A stretch of 64,000 nt of DNA. Origin: Schleiferiaceae bacterium (GTDB lineage: Bacteria > Bacteroidota > Bacteroidia > Flavobacteriales > Schleiferiaceae). The stretch lies in the NCBI GenBank assembly GCA_018402665.1, contig JAGYIN010000008.1, forward strand, positions 1 through 64,000. Reading direction: 5' to 3'. The position numbers and the translations under genes were made by a program. The notes below the pieces were generated by a model. That model was given only the letters and a program-made list of their open reading frames with translations, ran no database searches and was not told the DNA's origin. Positions 3,718 through 46,047 of this stretch are shown one piece after another. How positions within the stretch are numbered: position 1 is the stretch's first letter; the number at the start of each line of letters is the position of its first letter.

Positions 3718-6700
3718 ATGACCCCAAATCAAGGCCATACGCCGCTATCTGCCCCGGCAGACTTCATCGTTTTAAACGCATCTGCGGGGTCGGGTAAAAC
3801 GTATTCGCTCGTGCAACACATCTTGATGAATGCGCTGCGAAAAAAGGATATGAACCATGCGTATCAAAAGGTTCTAGCGATCACTTTCACTAACAATGCC
3901 GCCGCAGAAATGAAGGCGCGTCTTTTGGACCAATTATTAACCTTCAAACGCCTCGAACACCCTTCCCAAAGTGAATTCTTCAAGCCCATTTGGGAGGAAA
4001 TTGGTATTTCACCAGAGGAGTTACAGCAACGCGCCGCTGGAGCAGCAAGCCACATGTTGCACAACTACAGCACATTAAATGTTGGTACCATTGACCAGTT
4101 CACGCACCGATTGGTGCGCACCTTCACAAGAGATCTTGACCTCGATGATAATTTTGAGGTACGCCTCGACCTCGATGGGATGATTGAGGAGGCGCTGGAC
4201 CTACTCTACAGTAGCCTCGGGGAGGCGCCAGCATTACGTGAGTCTCTCGCGGCATGGATGCAGGAACGCATGAACCGTGAAAAGGGCCACAACCCTGATC
4301 GGGATTTAAAGCGCGAAGGGAAAGAGAGTTTTAACGAGGATACGTGGAAGGAATTGGCCCATTTACCGGAACCGGAGCGCATGATTGAACTGGAAGAAGA
4401 GCTGAATCGTGAACTTTCCGTAATTGTTGCTGAAGGTAAAAAACTGGCACACCAAGCCTTTACCCATTTAAAATCCCAGGAATACACGAAAGACAACTTT
4501 ACCTATTACCCTCAGGCGAAAAAACATTTTGTCGATCTCTGGTCCAACCTGCGTAGTAACGATCTCGAAGCAGGTGTACAAGCGTTTAAAACGAAACCAA
4601 AGAGTGGTACAGATGCGGATTGGGAGGCCTTTTTAGAATTGGCCCAAGCGTTTCAAGAAAGCAACCAGCGCAAATTATTATTGCTCAAGCAGGCCACCGA
4701 AAAACTGCAGCAACTCTCAGCGACACGCGCACTCATGGATAAGTTTAATGCCCTTCAACAGGAGCAGAACACCATGCCACTTAGTGCCTTCAATAAACTA
4801 ATTTCCGAAGAGCTTCAAAAAGAGCCTACCGCGTTTATTTATGCGCGATTGGGCGAAAAGTTTTGGCATTTCTACATCGATGAGTTTCAGGATACCTCTG
4901 AAATGCAATTTGATAACTTACATCCACTCATTGAGCACACGCTGACTAAAGATGAAAATCCAAACAGCGCACTTATTGTTGGAGATGCAAAGCAAAGCAT
5001 TTACCGCTGGCGGGGCGGACGCGCTGAACAATTCATGGCGTTGGTAGATAACGTCCATCCGTCCAATCGCTTTCAACGACATCCGGATGGGCACGAATTG
5101 TACTCGCGTGAAACCGTCCAACTGCCCAAAAACTTCCGCACCTACGGAAACATTGTACACTTTAACAATGACTTTTTTGAGCACCTCGGCAAGCGGCTTA
5201 CCGTTCCTGCGCACCAGAGTGCTTATGCCGGCACGCAGCTGCAACAAATCCCTCATAAAGATCCCTTAAAAGGTGAAGTCACCGTGGCGTTCATCTCGGT
5301 GCCAGAGGGAGCGACGAAAACTGCTCAAAGTTATGCGGAGGCGGTTTGTGCAGAAGTAAAATCAAGCATTAAAAGCTTAATAAAACGTGGGCATTCGTAC
5401 AATGCTATTGCGCTTTTAGTGCGTGGAAATGCGCAGGGCAAATTATTGGCCAATTTTTTGACCGGAGAAGGCATTCCCGTCCTATCTGCAGATAGTCTCG
5501 TCGTAGGAAGCTCTTTTGAAAGTTCCGTTCTCCTATCTTGCGCCAGACTTTTCCTCAAGGCTGATGATCGTGAAAGCAGGTTCGCTTTGGCCTACGCGCT
5601 GACGAAGCTTGGAAAAATTCCCGCCCAATTAGAGCCCTTTGTTTTCCAACAGGAAGCCACATCTAAGGGCATACCCTACCTCAGCGGTTTATTTCCAGGC
5701 CTCCAAGAATTGTTTAGCCAACAAGAATCGTTATATACTTTCGGCGCTCGCGTTTTTGAGGCCTTTGGCCTTTTATTAGAGCCCAATGCCATGGTGGACA
5801 GCTGTCTTGATCTGCTCTACGGGTTTCAAACTAAAGAAGGTTCTTTCGCTACTTTGCCCTCGTGGTGGGAAGCGGAAGCTAAGAAACGTAATGTTCCTGC
5901 TCCTCAGGATAAACCTGCGGTGCAGGTGATGACCATACACAAGAGCAAAGGATTAGAGTTTGAACACGTTATTCTTCCATTTGGTATTAACTATAAATCG
6001 GGCGGCGATGCGCACTGGATAGATGTGGATGTCCATCCGGAATTGGCCCGATTGCCCATCACGAAATCGGACAGAAACGCCCCGCTGTTTGAATCAGAAT
6101 TATGGGCTGAGCTAGAAAACCAAAGTTACTTTGACTGGATGAACATGGTCTATGTGGCCATGACTCGACCCGTTGCCGGATTGCATGTCTTTGTGGATAA
6201 AGAAAAGCCTGATGAATTAGGGAAGGGCTTGATCGCCTTTTTGGGATGTGACCCGGAGGAAGGCACGTACCGCTCTGGAGAAATGGTACTCCCGGAATCC
6301 GCAAACACCGAAGAATCTGTTCGTCCAGAAGCACCAAAGCCCGGTGTATTCTCTCCTGCTAACCTTCGAATGGCGCAAACTGCGCCTATAGGTTGGTTTG
6401 ACGGCCACTCTGATGGAAGCAAATGGGGAACGGCACTCCATCAAATTCTCCAAAGAAATCCCGCTTCAAGAGCGGCGGCTTTGCGAAGGCTGTACCGCAC
6501 GGGTGCATTTTCAGATCACTTGCACGAAGGTGCGGCGGCGTCCATTGACCAATTGGCCCAACATCCGGTACTGAAAGACATCAATGAGCGCAGTGTTCTT
6601 ATTTATACGGAACGCTCCATCATCACCAAAGAAGCTACTACACGTCCTGATCTCATCATTAAATCGGGTAAAAAAATCACAGTGGTAGATTACAAAACCG

Positions 6701-34962: not shown

Positions 34963-36051
34963 ATGTTCAGCATATATAACAATCATGATTTGATGGATCA
35001 ATTATTTGCTGCTCACGCCGGTAAAAAACTTCATCACGCAAATCTTATTTATGGCGGCGCTGGAGAAGATCCTTTACCCGTTGGCCTTAAACTAGCGGCA
35101 ACACTCCTCTGCGAGACAAAAACCGCCTGTGGAACATGTAGAAACTGTAAGCGCGTAGAAAAACTCGAGCATCCTGATTTAAACTTTACCTTTCCTTTTG
35201 TAAGCGGCGGAAACACGGGCACGGCCGACGATTTTCTAAAAGACTTCAGAAAAGCACTCTTAAAAAATCCCTTCCTTGATCCCGACAGCTGGCAAAGGCA
35301 AATCACAAGCAAAAACCAGCAATTGCAAATTCCTGTAAAGGAAATTCAAAACCTTCAGCAAAAGCTTAGTTTAACCGCTGCGGAAGGCGGAAATCGAGTG
35401 CTCCTGATATGGATGCCTGAACAGATTAAAACAACCGCTTCAAACAAGCTGCTTAAGCTCATAGAAGAGCCTCTGCCCAACACGTTCATTATTCTTGTTT
35501 CACATCGAAAAAACAAGCTTCTCCCTACCATCGTGTCACGATGTGCGCCTTGGTCTTGCAAACCACTAGACGAATCATCTTTCAACCAACACTTTGAAAA
35601 CAGCCCCGGACAAACAAAACGGCTTTTAAGCATGGTATTCGCTCCGAACCTGGGTGCCGCAATAACCGCTTATGATGATCCTGAAATCACTCAAATTGAT
35701 CGTTTTGCTGAATGGATGAGGACTTGCTACAAAGGGGTGCCCGTGGAAATTGCATCTGTAGTGAATACGCTTGCTTCTCTGCCAAAAGAGTCTCTTAAAA
35801 CCCTTATTTACAGGTCATTACATTTTTTAGAGCGTGGTTTTTACCACAATGTTCAAAACACCCCTAACGGTGCTACAGACCTCGGTGTAATCAACGTTCA
35901 GAAGCTAAGCGGCGCTGTGGTTCCAAAGGGCGCCTCCAGTATTACAAGATCGCTTGGTGACTGCCTCAACGACCTGGAAAGAAACGTTCATGTAAAAACA
36001 ACATTGACGCACACTTCTTTTGCGTTATATAGCGCCTTCCGTGGTAACTAA
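34963..36051 (+). CDS. holB: DNA polymerase III delta' subunit
   Basis: A 362-residue clamp-loader subunit. The zinc-binding Cys set CETKTACGTCRNCKR is present near residues 49-63, as is the EIQNLQQKLSLTAAEGGNRVLLI region and a sensor segment LIEEPLPNTFIILVSHRKNKLLPTIVSRC of the DnaX/HolB family. The P-loop position reads GGAGEDPLPVG with no GK(T/S), as expected for delta', which does not hydrolyse ATP. It overlaps the convergent methyltransferase gene by 4 bp. Confidence 0.88.
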   Translation: MFSIYNNHDLMDQLFAAHAGKKLHHANLIYGGAGEDPLPVGLKLAATLLCETKTACGTCRNCKRVEKLEHPDLNFTFPFVSGGNTGTADDFLKDFRKALLKNPFLDPDSWQRQITSKNQQLQIPVKEIQNLQQKLSLTAAEGGNRVLLIWMPEQIKTTASNKLLKLIEEPLPNTFIILVSHRKNKLLPTIVSRCAPWSCKPLDESSFNQHFENSPGQTKRLLSMVFAPNLGAAITAYDDPEITQIDRFAEWMRTCYKGVPVEIASVVNTLASLPKESLKTLIYRSLHFLERGFYHNVQNTPNGATDLGVINVQKLSGAVVPKGASSITRSLGDCLNDLERNVHVKTTLTHTSFALYSAFRGN

Positions 36052-36929
36052 GCGTTCTTAAAGACATAAATCAAAGAACTCTTATTATCCTTGCCTCCTT
36101 TGATATTGCTGATGGTTCCTCGTACAAGACCTTTCAGCCAATGAAATAAACGTTTTGTTGGAGCGCCTTCCTTATACTGCTCGCTAATCAGACTGATATA
36201 ATAACTGTCCAAAGACATGGGTAAAACGTCTTGTAACTCAAAGCCGTTCCGCTCTAACGCGGTTTTCATGCTTTTTTTGGTAAAATGGTGAACGTGAATT
36301 GGGATGTCCCAAGCCGCCCAGTGTACTCCATAATGTTGTGCGTCGTGGCTTTCTGGATTGGGAACGGCAATTAGTAGTGTTCCGTTGTTTTTGAGCTTTA
36401 ACTTAAAGGCTTGAAGCAATTCATCCAAATTATAGACATGCTCTAAAACGTGCCACATCGTAATTGCGTCTACCCCTCCCTTTACCTCGCTTACATCGCT
36501 ATAAACGCGCCCAAATTTAGAGGCTTTTGCCCGTGCGCCTTCGTTAATCTCTACACCTTGGACCTCGTGGCCTTTAGCGGCCATCTTTTGCATGAATTGG
36601 CCCGTTCCACAACCGTAGTCTAAAAGCGATTTTCCATCAGCATATTTTTGAACGTGGCCGTGTTTCCAATTCATATTAATCTCACGCAAAAATTGATACA
36701 CTTTTGCAAACATAGAAGTATCATCATCCGTATGGCTGATGTAGTCAGGATTGTCGTAATAAGGACCCACCAAATCTTCCTTTACGCGAGGATTGGTAAA
36801 CAAATGGGAACAATGTCCACAAGACCAAATATCAAAGACCTCTTTACTCGTGCTGAAATCTTTTACAGACTGGTAAAAGGATATGTCTTTTTTTAAACAA
36901 GCCGGACAATGCGTTAACTCTTCTCTCAT
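36048..36929 (-). CDS. SAM-dependent methyltransferase with N-terminal zinc-ribbon-like motif
   Basis: A 293-residue protein. Two CxxC pairs (CPAC near residue 8 and CGHC near 37) form a likely zinc-binding knuckle. The methyltransferase core follows with SLLDYGCGTGQFMQKMA (SAM-binding motif I) near 105, GVEINEGA and DAITMWHVLEHVYN. This is the Methyltransf_23 type used on small molecules or glycans; the substrate is unknown. It is the last gene of the DUF4175-ybeY-mnmG strand block. A parS-like site lies just upstream. Confidence 0.82.
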   Translation of the reverse strand: MREELTHCPACLKKDISFYQSVKDFSTSKEVFDIWSCGHCSHLFTNPRVKEDLVGPYYDNPDYISHTDDDTSMFAKVYQFLREINMNWKHGHVQKYADGKSLLDYGCGTGQFMQKMAAKGHEVQGVEINEGARAKASKFGRVYSDVSEVKGGVDAITMWHVLEHVYNLDELLQAFKLKLKNNGTLLIAVPNPESHDAQHYGVHWAAWDIPIHVHHFTKKSMKTALERNGFELQDVLPMSLDSYYISLISEQYKEGAPTKRLFHWLKGLVRGTISNIKGGKDNKSSLIYVFKNA

Positions 36930-36931
36930 AG

Positions 36932-36947
36932 TGTTTCACGTGAAACT
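36932..36947. promoter_or_regulatory. parS site (ParB-binding palindrome), copy 1
   Basis: TGTTTCACGTGAAACT matches 15 of 16 bases of the broadly conserved bacterial parS consensus TGTTTCACGTGAAACA; the 14-bp core at 36933-36946 is a perfect palindrome. It occupies the 24-bp gap between mnmG and the methyltransferase gene. parS sites mark the origin-proximal domain in most bacteria. Binding by ParB is inferred. Confidence 0.85.
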
Positions 36948-36953
36948 ATTTTC

Positions 36954-38807
36954 TTATCTACCCATATATACAAGCAACACGTGTATGTCGCTTTGACTAA
37001 TGCCACTAATTCTTGAGGCTTGTGCTATTGTTGTCGGCTGTATCGCTTTAAGCTTATCGCGCCCTTCATAACTTAAACCCTTGACCTTATCATAATCAAA
37101 CTTTTCCGGAATGTTCTTTGTGTTTAGGCGTTTCATCTTTTCGACGTTCTCGCGTTCACGACTTATATATCCGCCGTACTTAATGTCTATTTCTAGTTGC
37201 TCTATAACATCGGAGCGCCACCATTCTTTGTCTTCGAACTTGTCGCTAAAATCGTCAAGCTTCAAATTTGGCCGGGCAACCAGCTTACTCGTCTTTGTTT
37301 TTTCCGTTGCATTTTTTTCACCCCGTCGCTCGAGAACCTCGTTTACATACGCCAAGGGCAGGTTTTTATCCAACGCTGCGTTACCGTCTAAAATTAAACG
37401 CTCTTTCTCGTTTAATAAGGCAACCCTTTTCTCTGATGCTAAACCTACCGCATGGCCTAATTTAGTGAGCCTTATATCCGCGTTATCCTGACGCAACAAT
37501 AATCTATATTCCGCTCTTGAAGTAAACATTCTATACGGTTCCTCTGTGCCTTTAGTAATAAGATCGTCTATTAGAACCCCTATGTATGCATCGTTTCTTC
37601 CTAGAATAAAGGGATCCTCACCGCGCGTCTTTAACACGGCATTTACACCAGCCATAAGACCTTGACAAGCGGCCTCTTCATATCCTGTGGTACCGTTGAT
37701 TTGACCAGCGAAATACAAGCCGCTTACGAGCTTTGTTTCTAACGTATGTTTAAGCTGTGTTGGTGGGAAATAATCGTACTCGATAGCGTATCCCGGCCTA
37801 AAGAACTTTGCACTTTCAAAACCTCTTACTTTATGTAAGGCCTCATATTGTATCTCTACGGGAAGGCTGGAGCTAAAGCCGTTAACATAAACCTCTACAG
37901 TATTCCACCCTTCTGGCTCTACGAATATCTGATGCGACGTTTTTTCAGAGAATCGATCAATCTTATCTTCTATCGAGGGGCAATAACGCGGGCCTGTGCC
38001 TCTAATCGTTCCGTTAAATAGGGGGGAACGGTCAAATCCTTTCTTAAGTACATCGTGAACCTCTTGAGAGGTGTGTGTTATCCAGCAGCTTCTTTGGTTT
38101 TTGAGCGAATAATCACCTTCAAAGCTGAACTGACCGGGTTGCTCGTCCCCGGGCTGTTCTTCCATTAGAGAAAAATCCAATGATCTTCCATCTATTCGTG
38201 GAGGTGTGCCCGTTTTCATTCTACCGGCCTCAAAACCCATAGCAACCAACTCCTCTGTGATACCCGTACTTGCGCGCTCGCCAGCTCTACCACCTCCAAA
38301 ATTCTTATCTCCTACATGGATAAGCCCGTTCATAAATGTGCCTGAAGTTAGAATAACCGTATCTGCCTCGAACGTTAAACCTAGCGAAGTCCTAACGCCA
38401 TGCACAGTGTGATCACTCACGTTTAGTCCAATAACCATGTCCTGGAACATATTGAGTCCCGGTGTTTCTTCCAAGAGCTCCCTCCAATATTGGGCAAACA
38501 ACATGCGGTCACTTTGCACCCGGGGGCTCCACATTGCAGGTCCTTTGCTTCTATTTAGCATACGGAACTGAATCATACTCTTATCTGTTATGAGTGCACT
38601 TCCTCCTCCCAATGCGTCTATTTCACGTACAATCTGGCCCTTCGCAACCCCGCCCATTGCGGGATTACAGCTCATTTGTCCAATGCTTTGCATGTTCATT
38701 GTAATAAGCAGAACATTGGCGCCCATCTTCGCTGCACAATACGCTGCTTCGCAGCCCGCATGACCGCCTCCAACTACAATTACATCATATTTTTCGTCAA
38801 GAACCAT
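36954..38807 (-). CDS. mnmG: tRNA uridine 5-carboxymethylaminomethyl modification enzyme MnmG (GidA)
   Basis: A 617-residue FAD enzyme that with MnmE modifies wobble U34 of several tRNAs. The FAD-binding [17 protein letters not shown] is at the N-terminus, with the hallmark [31 protein letters not shown] and the C-terminal helical domain. Normal length. It overlaps ybeY by 11 bp. In several phyla this gene lies beside oriC; here parS sites lie on both sides. Confidence 0.97.
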
Positions 38808-39192
38808 AGTTTTCTAAATAAGCTAACACTTCATCTTCTTTATGACGCATTACTTTGATTTCCTCTTCAGTCTTATCTTTTAGCCCTGTCAAGTGGAGCA
38901 TACCATGCGCCACAACTCTTCTTAATTCAGAGGTATAGGTCACTCCAAGAGCCTGGGCATTATCCTTTACCCGATCTAGGCTTATAAAAAGCTCGCCGCT
39001 TATTCTGTCGCCACGGGAATAATCAAACGTGATGATATCCGTGTAATAATCATGATTGAGATGCTCTTTATTTATAACTAACAACTCTTCATCTGAACAA
39101 CCGTGAACATCTATCTTCTTTAATCGTAACGATGGATTGAGCTCCTGAATTGCCCGCTTCACCATAACAACCAACTGTGCATCTACATCCAT
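38797..39192 (-). CDS. ybeY: Endoribonuclease YbeY
   Basis: A 131-residue metal-dependent RNase for rRNA maturation. The motif appears as [17 protein letters not shown], giving the first two zinc His of HGxLHLxGxDH, but the third His position is Lys. This form with KD instead of DH is, as far as I know, seen in other Bacteroidota; a later His in MRHKEDE might substitute. It follows the DUF4175 gene after 2 bp and overlaps mnmG. Confidence 0.9.
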
Positions 39193-39194
39193 TT

Positions 39195-41726
39195 CTACAG
39201 CTTCTTAAGCACCGGTAAAGGTAAGTCGGTCTCTTTGGATTTTAACACCTTAAAATCAATGCTTTCACCGCCTTTTGATTTTGATTCGTTTCCTGACTCG
39301 CTGTCTCTACTTTCGCCTAATTCTTTTTTATTAAATACGCTTTCCTCAACACGCCATAACCGCTCTTCCAGCTCGTTCAGATCTCGCTCTGTTAGTTCCG
39401 TATTAAATAATACTTCTTCTTTCAATCGTTCTATGTTTTCCAAAAGCTCTTCTGAACGATCACTTGATTTGACAAGCTCTTCCTTTGCCGCCTCAATTCT
39501 CTTTAACAATTCCTTTTCACCTGGCTTACCCGATGAACCAGGCTTACTTCCCTCTTGTCCCTCCTTTGGTTCACCAGTTCTTCCCTTCTTTCTTCCCCCT
39601 GGTTTTTTAGAGGGCTTCGGAGTACCTTTTTTTCCTTCTTTACCTTCTCCTGCTGATGAGGGTTTTCCTGAGGTACCTGGTTTACCTTTTTTGCAGTCCT
39701 TCTTTGCTTGATTTAAGCTTGATTTTTCACTCTCTAGTATAAAATACAACGCTTGATTGATATCGTTTAATGCTGTGATTGCATAGCCAATATCAGCATC
39801 CAGATTTTTACCAGCTGTCATTTTTGATTCAATCGTCCGCATCGCAGCACTAAGACTCATTCGTTTTTCAGAAAGTAACTGACTTAATAGCGGTTCATGA
39901 ATTAATAATAAATCCAAGGTGTCTTTTATCGCTTTTTCATTTGCGAGTACAAGCTGCTGCGAACGTGCCTTGTTTACCGCCGTTGCAAGTTTTTGTAAAT
40001 TTTCTTGCGCCACACTCACTACCCATCCATTTTTTAGCAACCGCTTTATACGCGCTACATTATCTTCTTGAACCTCTACAGTGCTCGTGGCTAGTAACTC
40101 CTTTAATTTATCACTAGATGCCTTCGCTTGCTTCTCCCTATTCTCTCCCTCTTTATCCATACCCTTCATACCTTCTATAGCGGGTTGAAGTTTTTCTATA
40201 CTAAGATCTTCTAGCGATTCCGCTGCTTTGAATACTGCACTATCTAAACCCTCGTCTCTTAAAGAGTCTACCATTGATAAGAGTTCGATGGCTTCTTCCA
40301 TTCTCCACAACTCATCTAACCGTTGAAGTAGTTCATCTAAAGGTTCTATCTCTTCTTTAACCTCTATTTGAAGTGGATTTTTTTCAACCTCATCCTTGAC
40401 CTTCTCGTTCTGCTCTTCGATTAGCTGCTTGTTTCTAAATTCTTTCAGTGTCTCCTCCTGATTATCAGTAATGGTACTTTTTAAAGCTTGATCAGATGCC
40501 TCTTTTAATAAATCAGTCGCGTTAAGTACTGGCCTTCTTAACTCTCTCTTAATACCATTCTGGTTATTATCGAAAGCTTTAATTACCACAGCTTTTCGAC
40601 TACCCCAAGGAAGGCTAACAACCGTGGTTAATCCATTGACCTGTACTTCTCGAGTATCTATACTTAATTTCATTAAGCCATAGTCATCCTTGACCTGTAT
40701 GATTAGCGAATCGTTGGTATTAGTCAGTACTGAAATAGAAGGAGAAGCGTCTGTAAGTTCAACGGTTGGTAATACCGTTGTCCAATACGCTGATTTTAAT
40801 TCAATAGGTGCTCCATCCCATTTAAACGATGTGCTATTTGTTTCACGTGAAACGTTAACTGCTATTTTATCTTTTAAAACTCCTTGGTACTCCAGTGTAA
40901 TTAAAGATCCTTTAAATGCTTTAATGGTATCCTGCGTTATATAGGTAGATAGCTTAAGATAATTAGGTGGTTTTATTGTAGCGCTCCAGGACGTTAATTT
41001 TGGCACGCTATCACATACTACTGTTTGTCTTCTATAGAACCTTCCATTAAGTTCCCAATCGATCGTTTCATTTTTCCTTATCAATACACTTTCAGTAACA
41101 CTCCCTTTATAGAAAGGTGTAAGGTGCGGATGACTCAACTCTAAAACTTCGTTGAATAACGTATGTACAGTATCATTTATATCTAGTAAGATAGCCTCAC
41201 GTGTGTAGGTACCGCTAACAATCTCGTCCTTACCTTCAGTTAAAATTGATTTTGGACTTATTAAAATTGTTAACACTAAAAGTGCTAATGCCCCAATTAT
41301 AGTTGAAAACGGTATGTTTTTTTTCAGTGTTGTTTTAAATACCGGTAATTCTAAATAGACCTTTTTTAATACAACGACTTGTGCCCATTTATCCAACTCG
41401 TTTTTAGATAAACCTGTTAGTTCATCGAGCCTTCCGTTATCATAACTCTTTAAACTCTTAGCAACACGATTTAAGGAATAGTAATTAGTCCATATTGCTT
41501 GTATCAAATAACGAATTGGCCAAAATAAGAAGGCAGTTAAAGTCAGTACCAGTAGGATTACTACTATCTTTCTAAAAGCAACAAGCTCTGGAATGAAATA
41601 ATGGTTATACAGCGCTAATGCAATAGCTTCAACAACACTAAATAATAATAGTAAAATACTATAATACAATGACTTACGTAGATAAACTACGCGTAAAAAA
41701 CGCTGTAATTCTTGTAACTCTGTCAT
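39195..41726 (-). CDS. DUF4175-family large membrane protein
   Basis: An 843-residue protein. Hydrophobic segments near residues 21-44, 51-75 and 140-160 anchor it in the inner membrane. The rest is extracytoplasmic or cytosolic, ending in long charged coiled-coil stretches and a Lys/Gly/Pro/Ser-rich low-complexity region at about 670-735. This matches the DUF4175 proteins of Bacteroidota; the function is unknown. It heads the strand block DUF4175-ybeY-mnmG-methyltransferase. Sampled lines are only about 30-37% GC, lower than neighbours. A parS site lies inside it. Confidence 0.8.
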   Translation of the reverse strand: MTELQELQRFLRVVYLRKSLYYSILLLLFSVVEAIALALYNHYFIPELVAFRKIVVILLVLTLTAFLFWPIRYLIQAIWTNYYSLNRVAKSLKSYDNGRLDELTGLSKNELDKWAQVVVLKKVYLELPVFKTTLKKNIPFSTIIGALALLVLTILISPKSILTEGKDEIVSGTYTREAILLDINDTVHTLFNEVLELSHPHLTPFYKGSVTESVLIRKNETIDWELNGRFYRRQTVVCDSVPKLTSWSATIKPPNYLKLSTYITQDTIKAFKGSLITLEYQGVLKDKIAVNVSRETNSTSFKWDGAPIELKSAYWTTVLPTVELTDASPSISVLTNTNDSLIIQVKDDYGLMKLSIDTREVQVNGLTTVVSLPWGSRKAVVIKAFDNNQNGIKRELRRPVLNATDLLKEASDQALKSTITDNQEETLKEFRNKQLIEEQNEKVKDEVEKNPLQIEVKEEIEPLDELLQRLDELWRMEEAIELLSMVDSLRDEGLDSAVFKAAESLEDLSIEKLQPAIEGMKGMDKEGENREKQAKASSDKLKELLATSTVEVQEDNVARIKRLLKNGWVVSVAQENLQKLATAVNKARSQQLVLANEKAIKDTLDLLLIHEPLLSQLLSEKRMSLSAAMRTIESKMTAGKNLDADIGYAITALNDINQALYFILESEKSSLNQAKKDCKKGKPGTSGKPSSAGEGKEGKKGTPKPSKKPGGRKKGRTGEPKEGQEGSKPGSSGKPGEKELLKRIEAAKEELVKSSDRSEELLENIERLKEEVLFNTELTERDLNELEERLWRVEESVFNKKELGESRDSESGNESKSKGGESIDFKVLKSKETDLPLPVLKKL
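40839..40854. promoter_or_regulatory. parS site (ParB-binding palindrome), copy 2
   Basis: TGTTTCACGTGAAACG matches 15 of 16 bases of the parS consensus, with the same 14-bp palindromic core as the copy at 36932. It is inside the DUF4175 coding sequence, 3.9 kb from copy 1 and about 2 kb from the AT-rich candidate origin. Confidence 0.85.
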
Positions 41727-42340
41727 TATTTATTACTAACTGTTCACCTATAAAGGAGATAGAAACAAACGTCCCTAATTATAAATTGGTCCAAATGGGG
41801 CGGATTAAAAATCCCGCAGTATTATTTTTTCAAGATAGTTATTGCATGAAGAACGATTCTATCACGAATTGGTTCTTAAAAAATAATTATCAAGTCATTG
41901 TTGCTGAGCGCTCAAATACAGACCCTTTGTTTGTTTTGAATACTGATCACCCTTTTATCCGTGAGTTGGATGGACTTGCCCTTATCACTGATTTAAAATC
42001 ATATCCAATAGAATACGTCGCTGCCTCAGGTTTAGAAGTGCACGCAACCGTGAATTGGTTTGTAAATACGGATGTTAAAGGCGGCTTTTTATTTCCTTTT
42101 TATAAAGGAAGCTTCAAAGAATATTTAGTAGAATGTATGTATAAAAGTAATAAGGTCCTTCCTAGTTATCCTAGTCAAATAACACCAATAGAATTAATAA
42201 ACCTCTTAGAAACATTACCCCCTCCAAGTGGAACTTATGGTAATTATTCTCTGCGATTCTTACAGGGGATCTGGGAGCAACACCCTAAGGTACAACTCAC
42301 TTCATACGAAGGTGAATTAGTTTACCAAGTCGTTAAATAG
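41669..42340 (+). CDS. Lipoprotein of unknown function, divergent from and overlapping the DUF4175 gene
   Basis: A 223-residue protein with a lipoprotein signal (AVILVTLSLFITNC, Cys25). The mature part is an alpha/beta-looking domain with VLFFQDSYCMKNDSI and WFVNTDVKGGFLFPFYKGS; I do not recognise the family. No later ATG or GTG precedes the signal, so the start at 41669 stands. The first 58 bp therefore overlap the 5' end of the divergent DUF4175 gene. It is convergent with rpiB, with a single base between stops. Confidence 0.7.
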   Translation: MTYVDKLRVKNAVILVTLSLFITNCSPIKEIETNVPNYKLVQMGRIKNPAVLFFQDSYCMKNDSITNWFLKNNYQVIVAERSNTDPLFVLNTDHPFIRELDGLALITDLKSYPIEYVAASGLEVHATVNWFVNTDVKGGFLFPFYKGSFKEYLVECMYKSNKVLPSYPSQITPIELINLLETLPPPSGTYGNYSLRFLQGIWEQHPKVQLTSYEGELVYQVVK

Positions 42341-42341
42341 A

Positions 42342-42773
42342 TTAACTACAAGCTATTTTACCCACCCTTCTTTGGTGACGTCCACCTTCAAATTCCTGAG
42401 TTAAAAACTCTGAAACAATCAGTTTTGCCTCGTCGGTTGAAATAAACCGTGCAGGTATTGCTACAATATTTGCGTCGTTGTGTTGACGAGCAAGCGCCGC
42501 TATTTCTGGTGTCCAACACAGCGCACCACGAATACCTTGATGTTTATTAACCGTCATATTTATACCGTTACCTGAACCACAAATAACTACACCTAAATCC
42601 GCATCACCCTCATCAACAGCTATAGCAACGGCATGACCGTAATCTGGATAATCTACACTATCACTTGAGAACGGCCCTTTATCAAGCGCGTCGTGTTTTA
42701 ATTCTGTTATTAATTGAATCAAAACTTCTTTTAATTCAACCCCTGCATGGTCACATCCAATTGCTATTTTCAT
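42342..42773 (-). CDS. rpiB: Ribose-5-phosphate isomerase B
   Basis: A 143-residue pentose phosphate enzyme interconverting ribose 5-phosphate and ribulose 5-phosphate. Characteristic segments are IGCDHAGVELKE at the N-terminus, VICGSGNGINMTVNK with the catalytic Cys, and ARQHNDANIVAIPARF. Normal length. It borders the AT-rich candidate origin region. Confidence 0.94.
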   Translation of the reverse strand: MKIAIGCDHAGVELKEVLIQLITELKHDALDKGPFSSDSVDYPDYGHAVAIAVDEGDADLGVVICGSGNGINMTVNKHQGIRGALCWTPEIAALARQHNDANIVAIPARFISTDEAKLIVSEFLTQEFEGGRHQRRVGKIACS

Positions 42774-42818
42774 TCGGTAGTAAATTTCTACAAAGGTCGT
42801 AAATGTTGTGAATTACAC

Positions 42819-42837
42819 TGTGTATAAAAGTGGATAA
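42819..42837 (-). promoter_or_regulatory. Pair of DnaA-box-like 9-mers
   Basis: On the minus strand the two sites read TTATACACA (perfect match to TTATNCACA) and TTATCCACT (one mismatch to TTATCCACA). They are in the same orientation with a 10-bp period. Confidence 0.6.
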
Positions 42838-43030
42838 GTAGATCATATCCTATGAAAACTTTCTCTTGCTTATCTCAAAGTTTTACCTAATTCAAAAATT
42901 TCACGACATAAGCCTTCTGAGTTAGAAAATGTTCTCTTCCATTTATAAACCCTTAAGGCGTAGATATTCCCTGTCCATTCATTTTTATTTCTCAACTTAA
43001 CACAGTGAACTTCATTATTAACACTCTATA

Positions 43031-43050
43031 AGTAATTTACATAAATTACT
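43031..43050. repeat. Perfect AT-rich inverted repeat
   Basis: AGTAATTT-ACAT-AAATTACT: an 8-bp perfect inverted repeat with a 4-base centre, inside the 22% GC part of the candidate origin. Related ATTAC/GTAAT words recur over the next 70 bp. It may be part of the unwinding element or a protein site. Confidence 0.6.
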
Positions 43051-43176
43051 GTAAATCAATATTTTAATTATTACCAAAAGTGTTAATAAAGTATAATTAC
43101 CATTACTAATTACTGGAAGGTTGATGAGTTATCACGGTTATCAACACACTATATATATTACTATATATCTTTTAAA

Positions 43177-43749
43177 ATGAATACATATATAAATAGAGGA
43201 GACTGGATAGTTAAGAACTCTAATGAGGTTTATGATAATGCTTGGATCACAGTACGGCATTATGAGGTTACTACGCCAGGAGGTACAGCGGGTATTTACG
43301 GTGAAGTGGATTTTAAAAATTTAGCCATTGGTATTATTCCAATTGATACCGAAGGTTACACCTGGCGTGTGGGGCAATTCAGATTCCCGTTAAACGCATA
43401 CAGCTGGGAAATTCCTGAGGGCGGTGGACCCATAGGAATAAACCCTTTAGAAAGCGCAAAACGTGAGTTACAAGAGGAAGTGGGTTATGCAGCTGACGAG
43501 TGGACTGAATTTCTTCAAATGGATGTAAGCAACAGCGTGACGAATGAACGTGCTGTGGTCTTCTTAGCGGAATCTTTAACCTTTTTAGGTACATCTCACG
43601 AAGACACGGAAAATCTTCGCTTAGAACGCCTGCATTTTAGTACACTTTATAATCAAGTGCTCAATGGATCAATAAGAGACAGTATTAGCGTTGCTGCAGT
43701 TTTAAAACTAGCTCTAATCCGTCCAGATTTTTTAGATATTAAGAAATGA
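43177..43749 (+). CDS. NUDIX hydrolase
   Basis: A 190-residue protein of the ADP-ribose pyrophosphatase-like group. The NUDIX box is present as GGGPIGINPLESAKRELQEE followed by VGY. The catalytic REL-EE core is intact, but the earlier Glu of the GX5E part is Ile, a variant that may affect the metal site. The upstream strand IPEGGG fits the family. Substrate unknown, likely a nucleotide sugar or ADP-ribose. Its 3' end overlaps the convergent GSCFA gene by 18 bp; upstream lies the candidate origin. Confidence 0.88.
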   Translation: MNTYINRGDWIVKNSNEVYDNAWITVRHYEVTTPGGTAGIYGEVDFKNLAIGIIPIDTEGYTWRVGQFRFPLNAYSWEIPEGGGPIGINPLESAKRELQEEVGYAADEWTEFLQMDVSNSVTNERAVVFLAESLTFLGTSHEDTENLRLERLHFSTLYNQVLNGSIRDSISVAAVLKLALIRPDFLDIKK

Positions 43750-44505: not shown

Positions 44506-46047
44506 CTAAAGATTAAATTCAATACCCTGAGCTAAAGGTAAATCACTACCGTAATTAATTGTATTTGTTTGTCTTCTCATATATGCCTTCCAAGCGTCTG
44601 ATCCGCTTTCACGACCTCCACCCGTTTCTTTTTCACCACCGAAAGCTCCGCCGATTTCAGCTCCAGAAGTTCCAATGTTTACATTAGCAATACCACAATC
44701 CGATCCACTTTCGCTTAAGAAAATATGAGCTTCACGCATGTCGCTAGTCATAATAGCTGAAGATAATCCTTGCTGAACACCATTTTGAAGTGCTAATGCT
44801 TCATGTATACCTCCAGAATATTTAATAAGGTAAAGAATAGGTGCAAAAGTTTCTGTTTGTACTGCGTTGTAATGATTTTCAGCTTCAATAATACAAGGCT
44901 TCACATACAATCCATTGTCATAAATACCGCCGCTTAAAACGGTACCACCACAAAGGACTTTTCCTCCCTCGTTTTGAGCGTTTTGAATGGTTGTTAAGAA
45001 TGCAGCAACAGCGTCTGCATCAGTAAGCGGACCAACATGATTAGATTCATCGAGTGGGCTGCCAATTTTTAATTGGTCATAAGCACCAACTAACGCATCA
45101 CGGACTTTATCATAAACGGATTCGTGAATGATCAAACGGCGAGTAGAGGTACAACGTTGTCCACAAGTACCAACAGCTCCAAAAACAGCTCCGGTTACGG
45201 TCATTTTTAAATCTGAACTTGGCGTAATAATAATAGCGTTGTTACCCCCTAATTCAAGGATACTTTTTCCAAATCGCTGAGCAACTGCAGCACCAACAAT
45301 TCTTCCCATGCGGGTAGATCCTGTAGCGGAAACTAAAGGAATACGCGTATCGTTGGTGATCCATTCACCAACTTTATAATTACCACTTACAATGCACGAA
45401 ATACCGTCTGGTAAATGATTTTCAGAAGCTATATTATTCCAAATATGCTGGCAAGCGACCGAGCAAAGTGGTGACTTTTCTGAGGCTTTCCAGACTACCG
45501 TATTACCACAGACTAAGGCTAGAGCAAAGTTCCAAGACCATACTGCAACTGGGAAATTAAAGGCAGAGATAATACCTACTACTCCTAGTGGATGCCATTG
45601 CTCCATCATGTGATGATCCAAACGTTCACTCTTGATGGTTAGTCCATATAATTGACGTGATAGACCTACTGCAAAATCACAAATGTCAATCATCTCTTGA
45701 ACTTCACCCAGCCCTTCCTGGTAACTTTTACCCATCTCTAGTGAGACTAGGGCACCCAGCATTTCTTTCATTTTTCTAAGTTCATTTCCGAACTGTCTTA
45801 TGTATTCACCGCGTTGAGGTGCCGGGACATTTCTCCAATCTTTAAAAGCGGCCTGTGCAGTAGAAACTGCTGCGTTGTATTGTTCTTCTGTAGTAACACT
45901 TACATCGCCTAAACGCGCAGAGTCAATAGGGGAATAGGAAGCAATCCATTCGCTGGAATTATGCCATTGTTTACCTATTGCTGTACCGGCGTTTTTTGCT
46001 TCTACGCCTAGGTTTTTTAAGATTGTGGTCGCTGTGAAATTTCCCAT
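44506..46047 (-). CDS. Aldehyde dehydrogenase, ALDH7 type (alpha-aminoadipic semialdehyde dehydrogenase-like)
   Basis: A 513-residue NAD(P)-dependent enzyme. Catalytic Glu is in [12 protein letters not shown] and catalytic Cys in [13 protein letters not shown]. The cofactor region has [22 protein letters not shown]. The C-terminal [33 protein letters not shown] pattern is typical of ALDH7A1/AmaB, which oxidises aminoadipate semialdehyde in lysine breakdown. No other lysine catabolic genes are adjacent, so the exact substrate is an inference. Confidence 0.88.

Follow-up and report, generated by a model that had tools for sequence, protein, structure and literature searches.

The DNA analysed here, a stretch of 64,000 nucleotides from a Schleiferiaceae bacterium (the window; bases 1-64000 of the 85,584-bp contig C25, one of the 26 contigs that make up an 89%-complete assembly of 1,951,257 bp), contains two 16-mers, site D at 36932-36947 and site X1 at 40839-40854, which very probably are chromosomal parS sites (the bacterial centromere) beside the likely replication origin, one of them relocated into a gene for a DUF4175-like protein. 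The proposal, under which the sites would be bound by ParB and would serve segregation, builds on what was observed: their uniqueness in the assembly, their position, their conservation, the codon constraint at X1 and the distribution of sites on the tree.

Two Probable parS Sites in One Assembly

Site D reads TGTTTCACGTGAAACT and site X1 reads TGTTTCACGTGAAACG, each with one mismatch to the parS consensus TGTTTCACGTGAAACA (15 of 16 bases), and both have the perfect 14-bp palindrome GTTTCACGTGAAAC in common. The initial annotation had singled out these two near-perfect 16-mers with their shared core and had held a second copy within 4 kb to be improbable by chance. Both statements stand: under a first-order Markov model of the window, 0.0016 matches with one mismatch or fewer are expected per 64 kb and 0.047 per 1.95 Mb. 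Nor is there the even scatter round the genome that the annotation had named as contrary to its view. At two mismatches or fewer, D and X1 are the only matches on all 26 contigs (reversed-pattern control, 0), and at three or fewer they are the only ones in the window.

That the two sites are chance matches is scarcely credible. Loose matching does yield such pairs, with 7 of 100 shuffled windows having two or more matches at three or fewer mismatches, and matches of up to two mismatches in relatives are often noise, the reversed control matching too. Because of the shuffles we rely on the match at the strict setting, on the absence of further sites and on conservation, and not on the loose count. 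Against chance stand the low expectation at one mismatch and the exact sites found at equivalent places in 20 genomes of the genus, the conservation that the annotation had proposed to look for, and at mnmG in relatives (control, 0); this conservation contradicts the chance explanation. The palindrome match and the small copy number (two copies 3.9 kb apart in this 89%-complete assembly, with a candidate oriC 2-6 kb away) support the view that both 16-mers are chromosomal parS-type sites to which ParB would bind.

The two sites and the genes around them are the following.

36932-36947, no strand, parS site D (TGTTTCACGTGAAACT), in the mnmG/methyltransferase gap, a slot occupied in 15/20 loci of the genus
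40839-40854, no strand, parS site X1, inside the DUF4175-like open reading frame (ORF), the minus strand reading V-S-R-E-T (GTT TCA CGT GAA ACA)
39195-41726, minus strand, DUF4175-like ORF of 843 residues, carrier of X1, family link through homologues only
38800-39198, minus strand, ybeY, overlapping the mnmG start by a few bases
36954-38807, minus strand, mnmG (gidA), TIGR00136 with E 1.1e-249, the usual parS neighbour in Bacteroidota
36048-36929, minus strand, class I methyltransferase adjoining site D, PF13489 with E 4.8e-28

Site D occupies the 24-bp gap between mnmG and the methyltransferase gene, and X1 lies in frame within the ORF upstream of ybeY; all four genes are read leftward, away from the candidate origin. 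Because ybeY overlaps the start of mnmG, there is no gap for the ybeY-mnmG parS site of relatives. The annotation had placed the sites in just these two positions, which is right; the name DUF4175 that it gave to the second gene is owed to homologues only, as the ORF of the window has no Pfam match to DUF4175 and no NCBIfam match. Homologues were found with a profile of the genus sequences at 8 of 40 other loci, and three of six proteins scanned from homologous loci in other genera matched PF13779 (DUF4175), two of the six above the cut-off. A 223-residue ORF at 41669-42340 (plus strand), which shares bases with the beginning of the DUF4175-like ORF, is matched in most loci of the genus; it gave no Pfam and no NCBIfam match.

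The Cognate ParA and ParB

The assembly contains a single ParB-family match at E up to 0.001, which is encoded beside a ParA-like gene on contig C23. The protein has the motifs GERRFRA and ENLQRE, which we take to be CTP-box motifs (CTP for cytidine triphosphate), and the polar stretch preceding G-H-A-R in this ParB (L003:1396-2313) is longer than in the five solved chains aligned with it. Its recognition residues, located by the landmarks G-K-x-R, N and G-H-A-R, are of the parS type, with R at the position equivalent to 173 and G at that equivalent to 201, the pair reported for parS-binding ParB and fixed in ParB (PMC7383237). The genome thus has a parA-parB pair of the chromosomal type, which encodes a cognate ParA and a ParB with parS-type recognition residues.

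It is very improbable that the sites are bound by some other factor, be it a Noc-like protein or a transcription regulator. Such a factor could be thought of because the genome's ParB obtains a score from the Noc model, because its 184-equivalent is K and because site D is located at a gene start. The score is 218.4 bits, below the cut-off of 315, and the assembly holds just the one ParB-family match. Noc sites are a different palindrome and lie scattered, which also counts against this alternative. The residues point in the same direction: a Noc has Q173 and R201 together with K at 179, at 184 or at both (PMC7383237), whereas the protein of this genome shows R at 173, G at 201 and, by count, F at 179 and K at 184, a position that is variable among ParB (PMC7383237).

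A Candidate Replication Origin beside the Sites

The cumulative GC skew has its minimum at 45,810 (computed over 84 kb of the 85.6-kb contig), 5-9 kb from the parS sites, and the 300 bp of lowest GC in the window (0.253) fall in about 42,894-43,240, starting within the rpiB-NUDIX gap. The following features make up the candidate origin.

42342-42773, minus strand, rpiB-like gene, left border of the candidate origin, genus homologues found by tblastn
42777-43176, no strand, candidate oriC, 400 bp of intergenic DNA with GC 0.27 in the rpiB-NUDIX gap, three DnaA-like boxes
43138-43146, plus strand, DnaA-like box TTATCAACA, conserved in 10/13 genus loci, with a TA-rich run after it

The left-hand gene (42342-42773) is presumably rpiB. 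The three boxes of the gap, at 42819, 42829 and 43138, each have one mismatch to TTATCCACA and are among 22 such boxes in the window at one mismatch or fewer. In 13 loci of the genus the gap measures 378-426 bp with a GC of 0.21-0.32, and in 10 of them TTATCAACA stands at the equivalent aligned place, followed by the TA-rich run. The basal unwinding system of oriC consists of a DnaA-box, a spacer and DnaA-trios (PMC8287927). Several members of the genus resemble it in having the conserved DnaA-like box and, clear by eye, a run of CTA/TTA triplets after it; they differ in being known from sequence alone, and in the window itself the run is interrupted.

The parS sites lie 2.3 and 6.2 kb from a DnaA-like box of the gap. 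In two members of the family with one long contig, sampled at 20 evenly spaced stretches of 19.9 kb (about 10% of the contig), the skew changes sign within about 0.2 Mb of the parS/mnmG locus: in G051 between the samples at 1.82 and 2.02 Mb, with parS at 1.86 Mb, and in G027 between those at 2.40 and 2.60 Mb, with parS at 2.62 Mb, just beyond the first positive sample. The origin that the annotation had deduced from the parS pair thus finds support in the skew minimum, the lowest-GC stretch and the DnaA-like boxes, all 2-9 kb from parS, with dnaA on another contig; the likely place of initiation is the rpiB-NUDIX gap.

parS and mnmG in the Bacteroidota

A layout in which parS usually flanks mnmG is, as judged from the genomes compared, widespread in the Bacteroidota. 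Selection for loci holding a site was removed by fetching mnmG loci by protein alone (the best 80 of at least 592 stretches). An exact GTTYCACGTGRAAC site was present in 70 of these 80, with 0 matches of the reversed pattern in 1.02 Mb. Of their 175 sites, 152 lie no more than 400 bp from mnmG, 95 of them upstream and 57 downstream (the mnmG end being set to one typical value for most loci); 1 is inside the gene and 22 are elsewhere. The locus sets overlap, at least four of the 80 (L218 of G021, L219 of G012, L220 of G016 and L266 of G077) coming apparently from genomes already sampled.

Exact sites were found in 52/57 genomes of the family and in 67/70 genomes drawn from the phylum, our own genome included. 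All 40 family and order loci, which were selected for having a site (one more exact site in G058, located on a different contig, was left out), contain mnmG, and their exact sites flank the gene, sit inside it or lie no more than about 3 kb away. Among the 29 loci L186-L214 of the phylum draw (up to 3 kb long, at least four of them from genomes already sampled), mnmG was present in 26, only ybeY near the contig start in one and neither gene in two, in both of which a site lies inside a threonine synthase gene.

Some sites of relatives depart from the common form. Three genomes of genus g12 (G057, G035 and G049) carry an asymmetric variant, TGTTCCACGTGTAACA or its complement, with one arm changed (L298:6575 and 8461; L299:14120 and 14172; L300:32 and 84); it adjoins mnmG in L298 and L299 and lies near ybeY at the contig start in L300. 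The change of one arm may accompany a change in ParB. An ordinary site inside the mnmG gene of G044 has another variant, TGTTACACGTGGAACA, at a distance of 90 bp (L111:9783 and 9873). The order relative G062 has six parS-like sites in about 275 bp between ybeY and mnmG (L135:9799-10072), unlike the usual pair, and in G108 mnmG is split between reading frames (L129:8731-10846), apparently by a frameshift or an assembly error.

Placement in the Genus and Codon Constraint at X1

In the genus to which the genome belongs, 20 of 25 genomes have exact sites, 36 in total, and all 36 lie in the parS/mnmG neighbourhood (reversed control, 2 in 25 genomes). The five genomes without a site are 58-84% complete and gave no MnmG match either, in a search made without a positive control; the parS/mnmG region is likely to be absent from their assemblies. 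The gap between mnmG and the methyltransferase gene holds a site in 15 of 20 loci. The ybeY-mnmG slot holds none in 20 of 20, and a decayed site, sought there in 13 loci, was not recognizable: the best segments have 4-6 mismatches, no better than the background of 3-6 in 300 random segments.

X1 is found in frame and at one alignment column in all 16 loci of the genus that hold the region. At the other four loci (L059, L067, L071 and L072) the contig starts inside the DUF4175-like ORF, past the position of X1. One of the assemblies concerned is 99% complete, and a search with the first 401 residues of the ORF in nine genomes found a piece in G020 only; it looks as if this fast-varying stretch assembles badly.

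The DUF4175-like proteins of the more distant lineages of the genus are 31-36% identical to that of the window, and the residues flanking X1 vary. The codons of X1 are invariant, GTT-YCA-CGT-GRA-ACA, except for Y and R, the bases that also vary in parS of relatives, and they give V-S-R-E-T, V-P-R-E-T, V-S-R-G-T or V-P-R-G-T. The five-codon window at X1 ranks first of 632 in DNA identity and is the most conserved DNA of the gene. Among codons for the same residue, those at X1 are identical in every one of 394 comparisons, vs. 10,624 of 26,084 (41%) in the rest of the gene; this comparison uses 96 divergent pairs of 120, which share ancestry and are not independent, and the control is taken from the same pairs. 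From these sequences it appears that selection on the DNA overrides codon choice, and part of the amino-acid choice, at X1.

The codon identity leads us to reject the explanation that what is conserved at X1 is a protein motif, V-S/P-R-E/G-T, which belongs to the DUF4175-like protein and spells parS by accident. The motif explanation, to which we give little credence, would suit a site that keeps its frame and its alignment column throughout 16/16 sequences; it does not foresee that third positions are invariant as well. The motif is also missing at the X1 column in the homologues of other genera (eight, plus three of genus g5), relatives have the 14-mer in other frames, in other genes and in gaps, and in one subclade of the genus a second site occupies a position at which the residues of the rest of the genus are unrelated.

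Probable Turnover of parS Positions

This subclade consists of five genomes (L060 and L063-L066), which form one clade on the MnmG tree (support 99, starred), a quick tree with several long branches. Site D is absent from the five, and a second site lies 585 or 579 bp further on in the DUF4175-like ORF. Where the subclade has this second site, L057, L058 and L070 have V-T-E-K/E-E-N, equal in length; these three are likely the sister lineage of the subclade (support 90, unstarred). A decayed site between mnmG and the methyltransferase gene was looked for in the five loci and dismissed, the best segments having 4-6 mismatches against a background of 3-6 (300 random segments). Every exact parS match in the assemblies of the subclade (74-100% complete) falls, as counted, inside one coding gene. 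At two mismatches or fewer, no other site occurs in the assemblies of G009, G021 and G007, and one more occurs in each of G017 and G004.

The DUF4175 homologue of genus g5 also carries a site, at a column different from that of X1. Common ancestry of the two was considered and rejected on two grounds: the g5 site lies about 22 columns upstream (MAFFT and hhalign), on a V-P-E-G-S motif of the family, and the MnmG tree places g5 in a group with other genera (96, starred), apart from this genus. Sites inside mnmG were found at three alignment columns, 463 (L112 and L114), 471 (L127, L128 and L133) and 493 (L110 and L111). Six distinct coding positions occur in the genus and its relatives, the threonine synthase of another family not being counted, and because their alignment columns differ we infer that the coding sites arose separately.

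We consider it probable, with less assurance than for the identity of the sites, that the flavobacterial centromere undergoes a turnover in which parS sites appear and disappear no more than a few kb from mnmG and the origin, through gain in frame by substitution, selection at the level of codons and loss from intergenic DNA, and that in one subclade (5/20) all exact sites have come to lie in one gene, which would tie this gene to the origin.

Proposed Function and Relation to Known Systems

In the mechanism that we propose, ParB from the parAB operon would load on both sites as a sliding clamp that depends on CTP and would extend across the origin region; it would act in the segregation of newly replicated origins, driven by ParA, and would bring in SMC. 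ParB requires CTP for its release from parS and for spreading by sliding, and SMC is recruited by ParB complexes (PMC8367383, PMC12511625). One site would have been relocated: the ybeY-mnmG site of relatives is absent in the genus, and a site would have arisen in frame within the DUF4175-like gene. In Pseudomonas one site of the origin-proximal set suffices (PMC4368675), and therefore a parS could move without loss of function, the new site being gained while the old one still worked and the old one decaying afterwards.

Several observations weigh against this picture. The parAB genes and dnaA are on contig C23, separate from the parS contig C25; ParB has K at the 184-equivalent, as in Noc; and because the assembly is 89% complete, additional parS sites could be missing. 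No exact site was found in 10/80 mnmG loci and in 5/57 genomes of the family, two of the five (G035 and G057) having a one-base variant. At the candidate origin, the boxes of the gap are imperfect while the only exact TTATCCACA of the window is far off, at 6192, and the skew of the window is noisy, with its minimum 2.7 kb away from the gap.

The sites are ordinary in kind. The parS consensus TGTTTCACGTGAAACA has been applied with up to two mismatches to 12 gut bacteria, and the origin is not systematically coincident with dnaA (PMC10197239). With the chromosomal parS sites of ParABS systems as described there, the present ones have in common the sequence, the small copy number and the clustering near the origin; they differ in that one of the pair is found at mnmG and the other within a neighbouring ORF, and in being known from genome data only. 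Nor is a parS within a gene new: of parS1-10 of Pseudomonas aeruginosa, 9/10 are predicted to lie in coding sequences, and it is the origin-proximal high-affinity sites that matter (PMC4368675). Here, by difference, one or both sites of a two-site set are in one gene and can be traced across a genus; relocation and codon constraint are not treated in the relevant passages of that paper. A search of titles and abstracts for parS with mnmG/gidA, with Bacteroidetes/Flavobacteria and with coding positions found, among the top matches, no description of these sites or of their relocation, which is not proof of absence in print, as subscription papers were mostly outside its scope. What the genome comparisons add to the initial annotation is the mnmG-linked layout, apparently widespread in the phylum, and the genus-specific intragenic site with its apparent codon-level constraint.

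The wider interest is in the conserved coding placement and the further coding positions in relatives. For this uncultured chromosome, with dnaA on another contig, the sites place the likely origin, and the findings suggest that parS beside mnmG is usable as an origin marker in many Bacteroidota. The genus offers a natural series of centromere relocations in which the gene order is largely kept, and it is therefore possible to test by comparison how far a parS may move away from oriC and what price a gene pays for hosting a centromere. If the proposal is true, with all exact sites of the subclade in one gene, what binds the DUF4175-like gene to the origin there would have nothing to do with the protein that it encodes.

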